From a virus, in IMG/VR virus record IMGVR_UViG_3300020396_000014, positions 1 to 41,612 of that record: a stretch of 41,612 nt of DNA. One strand, 5' to 3'. Position numbers and translations under genes: made by a program. Each line of letters opens with the position of its first letter. The stretch's first letter is position 1. Below the pieces are notes generated by a model. It did no database searches and was not told the DNA's origin. It saw only the letters and a list, made by a program, of their open reading frames with translations. Below, piece after piece: positions 13,242 through 38,531 of the stretch.

Positions 13242-13351
13242 TGGCTCCAAGGGCAGGATTCGAACCTGCACGAATATAAATATTCTTTTGCTAAGACTAT
13301 ATATTCACAGCATAAACAGTGCTGCGTGTCTACCTATTCCACCACCTTGGA
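13242..13351 (-). tRNA. Atypical class II tRNA, anticodon GUU (Asn), 110 nt, CCA encoded
   Basis: On the minus strand: acceptor TCCAAGG / CCTTGGA (7 bp), Leu-type D-arm (GTGGAATAGGTAGACAC), anticodon stem CAGCA / TGCTG with loop CTGTTTA (anticodon GTT), T-arm GCAGG TTCGAAT CCTGC, G73 and encoded CCA. Between anticodon stem and T-stem lie 38 nt forming a 7-bp stem (GAATATA / TATATTC) with a large loop. Normal variable arms have 4-5 or about 11-20 nt. G73, U1-A72 and the CUGUU loop resemble tRNA-Asn. Position 37 is U, where ANN-decoding tRNAs usually have a modified A. The D-arm is identical over 21 nt to the tRNA-Leu at 15839. It starts 6 nt after the synthetase-like gene. Confidence 0.82.
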
Positions 13352-13357
13352 TTATTC

Positions 13358-14182
13358 TTATTTTTTAAGAGTATCAAGCGCACTAATCATGCGGGTCATA
13401 CCAATTCCTCCACCAACTCTTGGAAAGAAATCAAATTCAAGAAACTTTTCAAGTTCAGCTTCAACACGATCTTTACCAAATAACTGGTTAATAAGACCGG
13501 CATATTCACCATTTGAAATAGTGTGGAATGTGTCTCGCATTTGGTCTTTATCAGTGCTACGCTCAGCACTACCAATTGTTTCCATGCCACCAAGGATAAC
13601 ATCAATCTTCTTACTTGTACCATCTTCATTTCTTGACATATTCCAAAATGGGCTTGTAAATTCTGGAAAGTCTGTAATCATACAACTATTAAAACCGGCT
13701 TGCATCGCTAGTTCGTGCTGCGCATCTAATTCAGTTGTAGCACTTAAGCCATAATGCTGTTGCCACTCTCTGTATGTTTTTTCTGTTAAATCATCGAATC
13801 CTAGATGGGCACACAGTTGCCTTTCCATTACTCTGAGATCATTAATATCTCCTGGCATTTCGAATTCAAACATCGGGAAAATCGTGTCATGTCTGCCTGG
13901 AATTGCATTCGGTTCTTGTCTGTAAGAAGTCGAGATACAAAAAAACCCCTTCGAAGAGGGGCGAGTTAATAATTCATATTCCAACCACATTTGGCCAGTC
14001 TGCGGAAGAGGCCAAACTTGCCCTTCGTAGTTATATGTTGCAACATTTTCTGGATCTTCGCATGCTGCTAAAATGCTTAAACGGTTCTGCGTATGTACTT
14101 CATGGAAGCCTCTATTTAAAAAAAATGACCTTAAAAGGTCAACGGCTTTTGTAAATTTTTGTGGATCAATCAATTGTGTCAC
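13358..14182 (-). CDS. Class II aminoacyl-tRNA-synthetase-like catalytic core (AsnRS/AspRS/AsnA type)
   Basis: 274 residues from a GTG start; GAGAGGA lies 6-7 nt upstream, and the ATG at 14212 would put this site inside the gene. Motif 2 is SYRQEPNAIPGRHDTIFPMF (residues 86-105) and motif 3 is GGGIGMTRM (257-265). HEVHTQNRLS and FPEFTSPFWNM fit the subclass IIb core. AsnRS is about 430-470 residues with an N-terminal OB anticodon-binding domain; that domain is absent here. Size and motif 3 also recall asparagine synthetase A (330 residues). The next gene is a tRNA with Asn anticodon GUU, which favours tRNA charging; amino-acid or peptide modification is the alternative. A late promoter lies at 14220. 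Confidence 0.82.
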   Translation of the reverse strand: MTQLIDPQKFTKAVDLLRSFFLNRGFHEVHTQNRLSILAACEDPENVATYNYEGQVWPLPQTGQMWLEYELLTRPSSKGFFCISTSYRQEPNAIPGRHDTIFPMFEFEMPGDINDLRVMERQLCAHLGFDDLTEKTYREWQQHYGLSATTELDAQHELAMQAGFNSCMITDFPEFTSPFWNMSRNEDGTSKKIDVILGGMETIGSAERSTDKDQMRDTFHTISNGEYAGLINQLFGKDRVEAELEKFLEFDFFPRVGGGIGMTRMISALDTLKK

Positions 14183-14219
14183 GAATATTTCCTCTCTATA
14201 TGCAATGCTCAATTGACAT

Positions 14220-35974: not shown

Positions 35975-36030
35975 TTTAATTTTTCTCCATTAATTAATTA
36001 CTTTATTATATATACTATACGTTAATGAAA

Positions 36031-36038
36031 TATTTATA
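36031..36038 (-). promoter_or_regulatory. T4-type late promoter TATAAATA
   Basis: TATAAATA followed by TTTC on the minus strand, 57 nt before the 35974 gene and touching the hairpin that ends the tmRNA transcript. Confidence 0.68.
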
Positions 36039-36059
36039 TGAAAAGCTCTAGTCTTTTCA
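36039..36059 (-). terminator. Hairpin ending the tmRNA transcript
   Basis: Stem TGAAAAG / CTTTTCA (7 bp) with 7-nt loop, then TATAAATATTT, which is also the late promoter of the next gene. Confidence 0.6.
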
Positions 36060-36114
36060 TTTAAGATTTAATGTACGACTTTTCTGTTGCTAGGTAAGTC
36101 GCCAACCCCCTGTG

Positions 36115-36162
36115 TTAGGCTGCTATTGCAACGTAACCAGATGGAGCACAATTATTGTTTGC
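36115..36162 (-). other. tmRNA proteolysis-tag reading frame
   Basis: 15 codons and TAA: ANNNCAPSGYVAIAA. The Ala resume codon GCA and the small hydrophobic end (AIAA, like the ALAA of E. coli) are as expected for degradation by ClpXP. Longer than the 10-12 residue tags typical of many bacteria. Confidence 0.85.
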
Positions 36163-36235
36163 ACTTGTAAAGTTCTTCGCGTTAACCCAGCTTAGATCGG
36201 GATAGTCTCCATGTTTCCGTCAACACCTGTCGATC

Positions 36236-36373
36236 CTATTTCAGCCCCATCAAAAAGACACGAATAAGTAATGGACCAATACGATAATTCTTATATGGAT
36301 TGCCGTTATTGTATCTAAAATCTCCCCATTGAAAGGGTTCTCCTTTAGTCCAATTTATCCAATGAAAGTCCAT
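36236..36373 (-). CDS. 45-residue ORF filling the intervening segment of the permuted tmRNA
   Basis: Starts MDFHWINWTKGEPFQWGDF and continues to LIRVFLMGLK. AAGGATACTAAATA places a ribosome site 8 nt before the ATG. It begins 16 nt after the CCA of the acceptor piece and its last 13 nt are the 5' end of the coding piece. The Trp/Phe/Tyr-rich, Gly/Asn-containing sequence looks like a real peptide. In known permuted tmRNAs this segment is removed and non-coding, as far as I know. Could be chance, but length, site and composition speak for coding. Confidence 0.6.
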   Translation of the reverse strand: MDFHWINWTKGEPFQWGDFRYNNGNPYKNYRIGPLLIRVFLMGLK

Positions 36374-36459
36374 TATTTAGTATCCTTATGGTGGAGCTGT
36401 CGGGTACCGCCCCCGAGTCCAGTATGCATCTAGTTAATATCATCAACTACATAATATAT

Positions 36460-36488
36460 ATACTAACACATTTTACATTAATTGTAAA
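36460..36488 (-). promoter_or_regulatory. Promoter of the tmRNA gene
   Basis: TTTACA (36488-36483), 17-nt spacer ending TGT, -10 TAGTAT (36465-36460) with extended TGn, on the minus strand. Predicts a start near 36453, giving an acceptor piece of about 65 nt. It begins just downstream of the SbmA-like gene's stop. Confidence 0.78.
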
Positions 36489-36496
36489 CGGCTAAT

Positions 36497-37480
36497 TTAT
36501 ACTTCTTTTTCTCCTTTAGCTATGCATAATTCAAATTCTCTTAGTCTCTTCCATATACTTATAAGCTCTACAACTGTTGCCCAAGATTTAACAACATATT
36601 GTAAACTACTTTCAACACGCCCAAATGCTCGAATTGTTTGTTGCAATGCGCCAAGAGTAATAGTACCAGCAAGAATAGTTGGCCCAAGCGCCAAATAAGG
36701 AACAAGAACCATTCCTTGAAAATAACTATATCTGGCTAAATTAAAATAAGCATAATGCATATACGATTTAAAATGAATGTCTCTTACCCAACTAAATAGC
36801 TCAGCAAGAGTTTTAGGCTGACCAGCTTTTGGATCATCTTCAGCATGGACTAAAACTTTACGATATCCAGCTTCTCGTTTTTGGATATCATATTCGATTC
36901 CTGGCAATTTAATACCAACTGCGGCAAGCAACATAGTACCACCAAGAGCAGTTGCAAGTGCAACCCACATTAAAGAGTTTGATACTTCTCCAAGAATTGG
37001 AAGATGTGTAACGGCAGCCGATAGTCCTATTAGAATAGGAATAAAAGCAATAAGAGTCATAACAGAATCCATGAGTCCTACACCAAGATCTTCCATAATA
37101 CGGGCAAACTTGATTGTGTCTTCTTGAATTCGCTGAGATGCTCCTTCTAGTCCACGAGCATATTTAAATTTATCATGATAGAATTCAACCATACTTGTAC
37201 GCCATCTAAATATCCAATGAGAAACAAAGTATTTAGTAATTACCATAATTACAATGAATTTAGCAGCCAACCATCCGAAACTTGCAAGAGATCCATAGAA
37301 CTCTGCAGCTGAAAGTGAACCAGGTTCGGCAAGTGCTTTTTGAAGATTATCGTAAAAACCTCCAAACCATTCATTTATAGCGACATCAATTTGTACTTGA
37401 TACCAAGTTGAAAATAAAATTATAAGTGTTCCAAGTATTGACCAATGCATCCATTGCCGCTGAATAAAAAATTTAAACAT
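36497..37480 (-). CDS. SbmA/BacA-family inner-membrane peptide transporter
   Basis: 327 residues, close to SbmA/BacA in length (about 400) but shorter. Membrane segments near residues 14-30, 66-86, 135-155 and 165-190. WRTSMVEFYHDKFKYARGLE and EGASQRIQEDTIKFARIMED are family motifs of the SbmA_BacA domain; no ATP-binding domain follows. Bacterial homologues import peptides such as microcin B17 or bacteriocin-like NCR peptides using the proton gradient. The start ATG lies in the end of the Rieske-type gene (8-nt overlap). A phage copy is unusual. Confidence 0.85.
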   Translation of the reverse strand: MFKFFIQRQWMHWSILGTLIILFSTWYQVQIDVAINEWFGGFYDNLQKALAEPGSLSAAEFYGSLASFGWLAAKFIVIMVITKYFVSHWIFRWRTSMVEFYHDKFKYARGLEGASQRIQEDTIKFARIMEDLGVGLMDSVMTLIAFIPILIGLSAAVTHLPILGEVSNSLMWVALATALGGTMLLAAVGIKLPGIEYDIQKREAGYRKVLVHAEDDPKAGQPKTLAELFSWVRDIHFKSYMHYAYFNLARYSYFQGMVLVPYLALGPTILAGTITLGALQQTIRAFGRVESSLQYVVKSWATVVELISIWKRLREFELCIAKGEKEV

Positions 37481-38531
37481 GATATGGATCCATATCTAAA
37501 TATTTTCCCCATTGAGTATAATAGTGACGCATACCAACTTCGTCATGTATTGTTGAGTTTTCGTATCTTCCATGTAAAATATGCCTGTCTTCTGTGCCTT
37601 CTCTCATTGTAGTACCCTGTCCAGTTACACCTAATAAATCTTCATGTAAGTTGCGTCCAAATGGTCCCCAAATTGTATTGTGATGCTTAATGCGAGTTTG
37701 TCGTTCTTCTGGAGTGTCTTTGCGTAATCCATATCCTCTAAATTCTATTAGCACTTTATTAGGTCCTAGTGGAGTAACACTATCTGATCGATAAGCACTG
37801 CCCCGTAAGTTAAAGTTAAAGCCTGGAAATAAGTCTACCATGTACCATTGGTTTGGTGGCAAATTAGGAAAACTCAATTCTCCTCTATCACCGTCTTTAT
37901 CGAACTCAGTATAGTTTACAGTAAAGCTACTAACATTCACATGTCCATTATCAAATGCAATATTCTTTCTAGCAAAGTATTCGTCATTAAATCCTGTTAC
38001 ACGATTAAAGTAATGCATGAAGTCATGATAGAATTCGCTGTTAGTATCATGCCATAGTTTATAGTTAGTAGGAATAACTGCTTTGTGGTAATGAAAAATT
38101 TCTAGTTCTTCTGTATCGATAGCATCTGCAATACAATCAAATGCGCCTGCTGTCCATTGTTCTACATCCATTGTCGGATTAGGATCTAGTGTTACCCAAA
38201 CCATACCGCCATGCTTTATTTCGCTGTATAGCTCTGGATCACTAGTTACAATAGGTGCTTGTAGTTTGCCAGTTGGCTTTTGTACGCTATGGTTATAATA
38301 CGCACGAACTCCGTTACCTGTGTTATATACAATAATATTATGTCCAGCAATTTGTGACGTGCGGTAATCTAATTCGTTATACATTTCACTAATATGACAT
38401 ACCGGTACCCATACCTTACTAAATATGCTTTCAATCTCTTCGTTAAATATTCTTTGACTAGAATATATTTCGCTACTAACTGATTCTATACTAGGTTGCT
38501 TCAACCAATTTTTATGATTACGTGGTGGCAT
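37473..38531 (-). CDS. Rieske-type ring-hydroxylating-oxygenase-like protein without cluster ligands
   Basis: 352 residues. The catalytic half has the mononuclear iron signature: NYKLWHDTNSEFYHDFMHYF gives Asp162, His169 and His173, and HEDLLGVTGQG supplies the usual later acidic region. In the N-terminal half the Rieske fold start is recognisable (IFNEEIESIFSKVWVPVCHI, AGHNIIVYNTGNGVRAYYN), but the CxH ... CxxH ligands of the 2Fe-2S cluster are missing (YYNHSVQKP in their place). So it may need an outside electron donor, or use iron only. AAAGGAG precedes the ATG. Coupled to the transporter downstream. Confidence 0.78.
   Translation of the reverse strand: MPPRNHKNWLKQPSIESVSSEIYSSQRIFNEEIESIFSKVWVPVCHISEMYNELDYRTSQIAGHNIIVYNTGNGVRAYYNHSVQKPTGKLQAPIVTSDPELYSEIKHGGMVWVTLDPNPTMDVEQWTAGAFDCIADAIDTEELEIFHYHKAVIPTNYKLWHDTNSEFYHDFMHYFNRVTGFNDEYFARKNIAFDNGHVNVSSFTVNYTEFDKDGDRGELSFPNLPPNQWYMVDLFPGFNFNLRGSAYRSDSVTPLGPNKVLIEFRGYGLRKDTPEERQTRIKHHNTIWGPFGRNLHEDLLGVTGQGTTMREGTEDRHILHGRYENSTIHDEVGMRHYYTQWGKYLDMDPYHV

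Follow-up and report, generated by a model that had tools for sequence, protein, structure and literature searches.

The IMG/VR virus record analysed here over its whole length (41,612 bases; the window) carries a phage-borne, circularly permuted tmRNA gene of the alphaproteobacterial type in which the removable intervening segment is probably occupied by a small protein gene. The spacers of permuted tmRNAs have so far been treated as throw-away RNA. If phages do use them to house protein genes, conserved genes have gone unrecorded in many annotated phage tmRNA loci, one of them in a cultured phage. The arrangement would be a non-intron route to nesting a protein gene inside a non-coding RNA gene, and it would tie RNA processing and translation to the rescue of ribosomes in infection in a way that can be tested.

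The tmRNA is complete and occupies the minus strand at about 36,072–36,492. It matches two Rfam models over their full length, RF01849 (1–355 of 355; 103.8 bits, E = 2e-27, cut-off 50) and RF04321 (1–213 of 213; 110.8 bits, E = 6e-21, cut-off 47), and ARAGORN places a permuted tmRNA with the tag ANNNCAPSGYVAIAA at 36,024–36,482. As expected of the permuted order, the acceptor (3′) piece comes first, at 36,389–36,450, with a 5′ end that the RF04321 and RF01849 alignments and ARAGORN fix approximately. It contains the T arm, the CAGCTCC strand (36,393–36,399), A73 (36,392) and CCA (36,389–36,391), the last two both being encoded. Next is the intervening segment (ITS/IVS), the 140 nt between the end of CCA and GGGGCTG in the Rfam alignment (36,249–36,388), and then the coding (5′) piece (36,072–36,248), which starts with GGGGCTG (36,242–36,248) and has an approximate 3′ end set by the extent of the RF01849 match. 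CAGCTCC and GGGGCTG form a 7-bp acceptor stem that includes G3–U70. The tag frame, ANNNCAPSGYVAIAA and its stop, lies at 36,115–36,162 (321–368 of the ARAGORN gene). The tmRNA strand folds 3.4 sd better than its shuffles, and both the acceptor helix and its extension into the spacer are present in the fold. Every element named in the original prediction (two permuted halves, the 7-bp stem, G3–U70 and A73) was thus found, on the minus strand; the covariance search that it proposed gave the full-length matches above, and its piece ends at 36,389 and 36,248 agree with the Rfam models. Upstream of the tmRNA, a consensus scan picked out a promoter-like TTTACA-17-TAGTAT with a TG (36,460–36,488, minus strand), although sites of this kind are about as frequent in the region as chance would give.

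That this tmRNA belongs to a phage, as had been proposed, is supported by the ARAGORN and Rfam results together with a T4-type gp32 encoded in the window, the nearest relatives of which are from the Kyanoviridae phages C48C1, Melnitz and HTVC008M. The same locus was found in a related 91.7 kb viral contig, L170, where the gene order is the same and the flanking proteins on both sides of the tmRNA are 97–100% identical. Host contamination is ruled out by gp32, by the synteny with L170 and by the isolate genome of Melnitz. A near-identity search of the window against phage records gave no match. Since phage two-piece tmRNAs have already been published, the headline of the original prediction is not new. 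Marine-phage examples, Melnitz and Mosig, were described in 2022, in a survey that counts 53 two-piece forms among 133 unique phage tmRNAs, 50 of them from marine or aquatic phages (PMC9004378), and the tmRNA database includes 79 bacteriophage sequences (PMC11915505). The original prediction also proposed that the phage took the gene from its host. In the published tree of related phage tmRNAs, that of Melnitz groups with alphaproteobacterial tmRNAs and not with its own host (PMC9004378).

What the original prediction overlooked is an ORF of 45 codons in the spacer. Almost the whole of the 140 nt is one reading frame, encoding a protein of 45 aa, MDFHWINWTKGEPFQWGDFRYNNGNPYKNYRIGPLLIRVFLMGLK (36,236–36,373, minus strand), that is recognised by its translation, its homologues and its dN/dS. 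A Shine–Dalgarno-like AAGGA (36,383–36,387) lies 9 nt 5′ of the ATG. The frame runs 13 nt beyond the spacer to its stop codon, TAG, within the conserved GAAATAG of the mature coding piece, so that the final residues and the stop are encoded by the 5′ end of that piece. The spacer is predicted to be closed by a helix of eight consecutive pairs between AAGGATAC (36,380–36,387) and GTGTCTTT (36,254–36,261), and the spacer ends co-vary across loci; the AAGGA motif overlaps the 5′ strand of this helix. Homologues of the protein were found on 57 viral contigs, nearly all of them within tmRNA spacers. Compared with the diverged (L084-type) subgroup of its own family, family B, the protein has a dN/dS of 0.15–0.27 and, by this sequence measure, is under purifying selection. 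Searches found no homologue of it in isolate phages and no PHROGs family at E = 1, and the PHROGs search gave no likeness to nucleases, integrases or transposases. The AlphaFold model is of low confidence (pLDDT 65).

Filled spacers of this kind are common among viral tmRNAs. Two scans of sequence collections with DNA patterns, one for the acceptor piece and one for the coding piece, yielded at least 128 distinct parsed viral permuted tmRNAs; the viral contigs are for the most part fragments. Among the matches listed, 47 distinct viral spacers were 100 nt or longer, and 28 of these contain an ORF that starts within the first 30 nt and covers 70% or more of the spacer length. When the spacers were shuffled with dinucleotides kept, the mean was 2.45 and the maximum 8; the reverse strand gave 3. 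An SD-like motif precedes 19 of the 28 ORFs, while the other 9 lack a recognisable one. About 40% of the long viral spacers do not contain such an ORF, and some of them have apparently structured RNA instead. A recurring spacer of that sort, non-coding and apparently structured (GAACTAGAAGTGG ... GACTAAGTT ... GGGGGCGGATCCC), was seen in L399, L098 and L101 and also makes up the 3′ half of the spacers of L207 and L223; in L399, Rfam identified only the tmRNA itself.

Chromosomal permuted tmRNAs are different in this respect. Among the matches listed for the acceptor pattern and parsed in the same way, spacers of 100 nt or more were found in 20 of 71 viral tmRNAs and in none of 56 chromosomal ones (Fisher p = 2.5e-6), where the range was 5–71 nt. 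RF04321 matched in 270 of 289 alphaproteobacterial genomes, and the two longest tmRNA spans among the matches listed (L459 and L460) were fetched. The 165-nt spacer of L460 contains no ORF, and inspection by eye of the long, repeat-like spacer of L459 showed none. Whether or not it is coding, the viral spacer appears to pair at its ends: the mean run of consecutive pairs is 9.8 in ORF-bearing spacers against 6.6 with swapped partners, and 10.6 against 6.0 in spacers without an ORF. The better pairing with the spacer's own partner suggests that the presumed maturation role of the spacer is kept.

The spacer proteins, roughly 20–80 aa in length, fall into 25 clusters, at least 12 of them with several members, and the families are unrelated to one another. 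When dN/dS was computed over the spacer-internal codons, most pairs in families A, B, E, F, H and G and the pairs L019/L446 and Melnitz/L438 gave values of 0.08–0.34: 0.08–0.23 in family A, 0.16 in E, 0.11–0.34 in F, 0.15 in H, 0.30 in G, 0.11 for L019/L446 and 0.21 for Melnitz/L438. Constraint is weak in families C and D (0.48–0.68). A tblastn search with seven nested proteins returned no homologues among isolate phages. The family A model, of three helices, matched no PDB fold significantly. In four spacers (L401, L419, L431 and L432), two short ORFs overlap and are joined near an A run, the second encoding a single-helix, membrane-type peptide; these pairs are candidates for an operon or a frameshift site.

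Like the window, the Methylophilales phage Melnitz and the Pelagibacter phage Mosig are marine and T4-like (Kyanoviridae), with a permuted tmRNA of the alphaproteobacterial type. The spacer of Mosig is short and lacks an ORF, in contrast to the 140-nt coding spacer of the window. Melnitz, which is a cultured phage, does share the feature: the present analysis found an ORF in its tmRNA spacer, at record positions 46,096–46,260, preceded by GGAG and missing from the annotation of the record, and no mention of it was found in the available text of PMC9004378. The encoded protein is unrelated to that of the window, and its stop lies 42 nt beyond the cleavage site. Homologues are present on 18 viral contigs, and in all 12 distinct sequences examined, they sit between the CCA end of the tmRNA and the coding piece. 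Indels in the family are 24 nt long and in-frame. Given this isolate genome, it is unlikely that the spacer ORFs are an assembly artefact. A glutamine riboswitch lies downstream of the Melnitz tmRNA (L449:1856–1904). It is said to control the tmRNA (PMC9004378); with the riboswitch in that position, the gene that follows is the more likely target.

Spacers also move. Some that are 98–99% identical are found inside tmRNAs with coding pieces only 61–70% identical, and near-identical spacers in such divergent tmRNAs point to a swap in which everything from CCA to GGGG, spacer and ORF together, is exchanged. In L207 and L223, a whole cassette follows CCA and precedes a structured spacer that is itself intact and resembles that of L399; the insertion point is CCA^TAA. 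Intact copies of the window's ORF occur outside tmRNA genes in L199, L206, L221 and L181, and with those of L206 and L221, part of the 5′ end of a tmRNA has been left behind. The cassette is located in an unrelated region in L212, and in L222, L224 and L225, the ORF follows the acceptor piece and the coding piece has been lost. Family A likewise has standalone members (L230, L232 and L233), two of which are directly 3′ of a tRNA gene. What sequence comparison establishes, then, is the permuted tmRNA itself, a conserved ORF with selection on the encoded protein, the exchange of cassettes and the existence of standalone copies. It was also seen that remnant tmRNA halves (or a relocated ORF of the window's type) lie directly upstream of another tmRNA gene in L224, L225 and L181, which suggests that phage tmRNA genes are duplicated in tandem and replaced.

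In the proposed scheme, a single transcript would span both tmRNA pieces and the nested gene. Host enzymes would free the two pieces, with RNase P cutting at GGGG and 3′ processing taking place at CCA, and the released pieces would pair and, together with SmpB from the host, act like any other tmRNA. Four complete related phages (Melnitz, HTVC008M, Mosig and one other) and ten contigs with spacer ORFs were searched for an SmpB gene and none was found, so the host protein would have to serve. Cargo would be tolerated at this site because the host's tRNA-processing enzymes discard the spacer and leave the tmRNA unharmed. The nested gene, with its own ribosome-binding site, would be translated from the shared transcript before processing or in competition with it, giving a 45-residue phage accessory protein; a small accessory function in infection is the default guess for its role. 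Spacer and ORF together would constitute a cassette that moves from one phage tmRNA gene to another and occasionally leaves them altogether.

Several other explanations must be weighed against this scheme. The simplest is that the reading frame arose by chance in the AT-rich, functionless spacer of an ordinary phage permuted tmRNA. Most permuted tmRNA spacers are indeed short and non-coding, and many viral ones have no ORF, but the 28 filled spacers against a shuffle mean of 2.5 (at most 8), the reverse-strand control, dN/dS values well below 1 and the in-frame indels rule chance out as a general explanation, and the conserved proteins occur outside tmRNA genes as well. Chance is thus highly improbable; the conservation of families A, B, E, F and H and of the Melnitz family refutes it for these, and it could hold for some single-member ORFs. 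The cassettes might instead be selfish mobile elements, comparable to the endonuclease genes borne by introns, that use a neutral site without benefit to the phage. This fits the exchange between tmRNAs, the insertion at CCA^TAA in L207 and L223 and the copy in an unrelated region of L212. Against it, the proteins are only about 20–80 aa long, PHROGs showed no nuclease or integrase similarity for that of the window, and many unrelated families share the one site. The standalone copies, moreover, remain intact, suggesting that the protein itself has a function, and a purely selfish nature is considered unlikely.

The position of the stop codon raises the idea of a self-limiting circuit, in which the RNase P cut at GGGG precedes the stop, the spacer becomes a nonstop mRNA and its product is tagged by the same tmRNA, so that the protein accumulates only if processing or trans-translation is saturated. 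The control of ArfA in E. coli is a comparable case. In the window's family, with its stop past the cleavage site, a fragment lacking a stop codon would be left after processing, and the position of the stops (13 nt past the site in the window's family, 42 nt in that of Melnitz) and the overlap of the window's SD motif with the spacer helix are consistent with such a circuit. Over the 25 clusters, though, the stops are mixed: they lie within the spacer in 13 clusters, at the final bases of the spacer in 6 and past the site in 3, while another 3 clusters vary, and family A includes both types. A stop past the RNase P site is thereby ruled out as a general rule, and the circuit is improbable. 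The broader proposition, that phage tmRNA spacers are a recurrent mobile cargo bay in which, for families such as the window's, a stop past the RNase P site produces a nonstop cargo mRNA and lets the tmRNA control its passenger, is a speculative one and judged unlikely. According to the original prediction, the phage may employ a tag of its own to change how stalled products are rescued or degraded late in infection. The tmRNA and its tag are complete, as this would require, but the tag bears no mark of altered function. Its frame has a degron-like tail (ANNNCAPSGYVAIAA), the near relatives read ANNNCAPSGYALAA, and the ARAGORN tags of loci with spacer ORFs end in LAA in 27 of 34 cases and in IAA in 4, much like those of chromosomal permuted tmRNAs (LAA in 32 of 44). 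With such ends and such relatives, the tag has the look of a standard degron of the host type. Redirection by the tag found no support and is very doubtful. Late use is equally unsupported; early expression is the published proposal for the Melnitz tmRNA.

The nested-gene reading can be set beside known systems. Members of RF01849 and RF04321 share with the window the gene order, the acceptor stem with G3–U70, the T arm, the tag and the two pieces; it is the 140-nt coding spacer that departs from the short spacers of the chromosomal members parsed. Group I introns carrying homing endonuclease genes also place a protein gene in a removed part of a tmRNA gene (PMC11915505). There, the intron is in the T-loop, splices itself and encodes an endonuclease, whereas the type seen in the window occupies the permuted spacer, which tRNA-processing enzymes would remove, and comprises small proteins of many families, with no endonuclease seen. 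A tRNA-Ala gene located in the intervening sequence of a permuted tmRNA (PMC11915505) is cargo in the same place as in the window, but that cargo is RNA and known from a single archaeal MAG, while the phage cargo is protein-coding, recurrent and viral. No prior description of spacer ORFs in permuted tmRNAs was found among the open-licence papers searched.

Elsewhere in the window, Rfam found a tRNA that ARAGORN missed (13,245–13,351, minus strand; 49.5 bits). It has a leucine-tRNA-like body, a very long variable arm and the anticodon loop CTGTTTA (apparent GUU), and lies just downstream of a gene for a 284-aa protein resembling class II aminoacyl-tRNA synthetases (13,358–14,212, minus strand). 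The latter matches PF00152 (Asp/Asn/Lys type), and no specific synthetase model scored above cut-off. Directly upstream of the tmRNA is a gene for an SbmA/BacA-like peptide transporter (36,497–37,480, minus strand; Pfam, 436.7 bits), which is also present in L170, with a distant copy in L390. Next to it is a gene for a protein resembling ring-hydroxylating oxygenases (37,473–38,531, minus strand). Homologues of the latter (66–84%) occur in many tmRNA-bearing viral loci (L170, L380, L420, L418, L019, L161 and others), which suggests that this gene is part of a conserved phage tmRNA neighbourhood.
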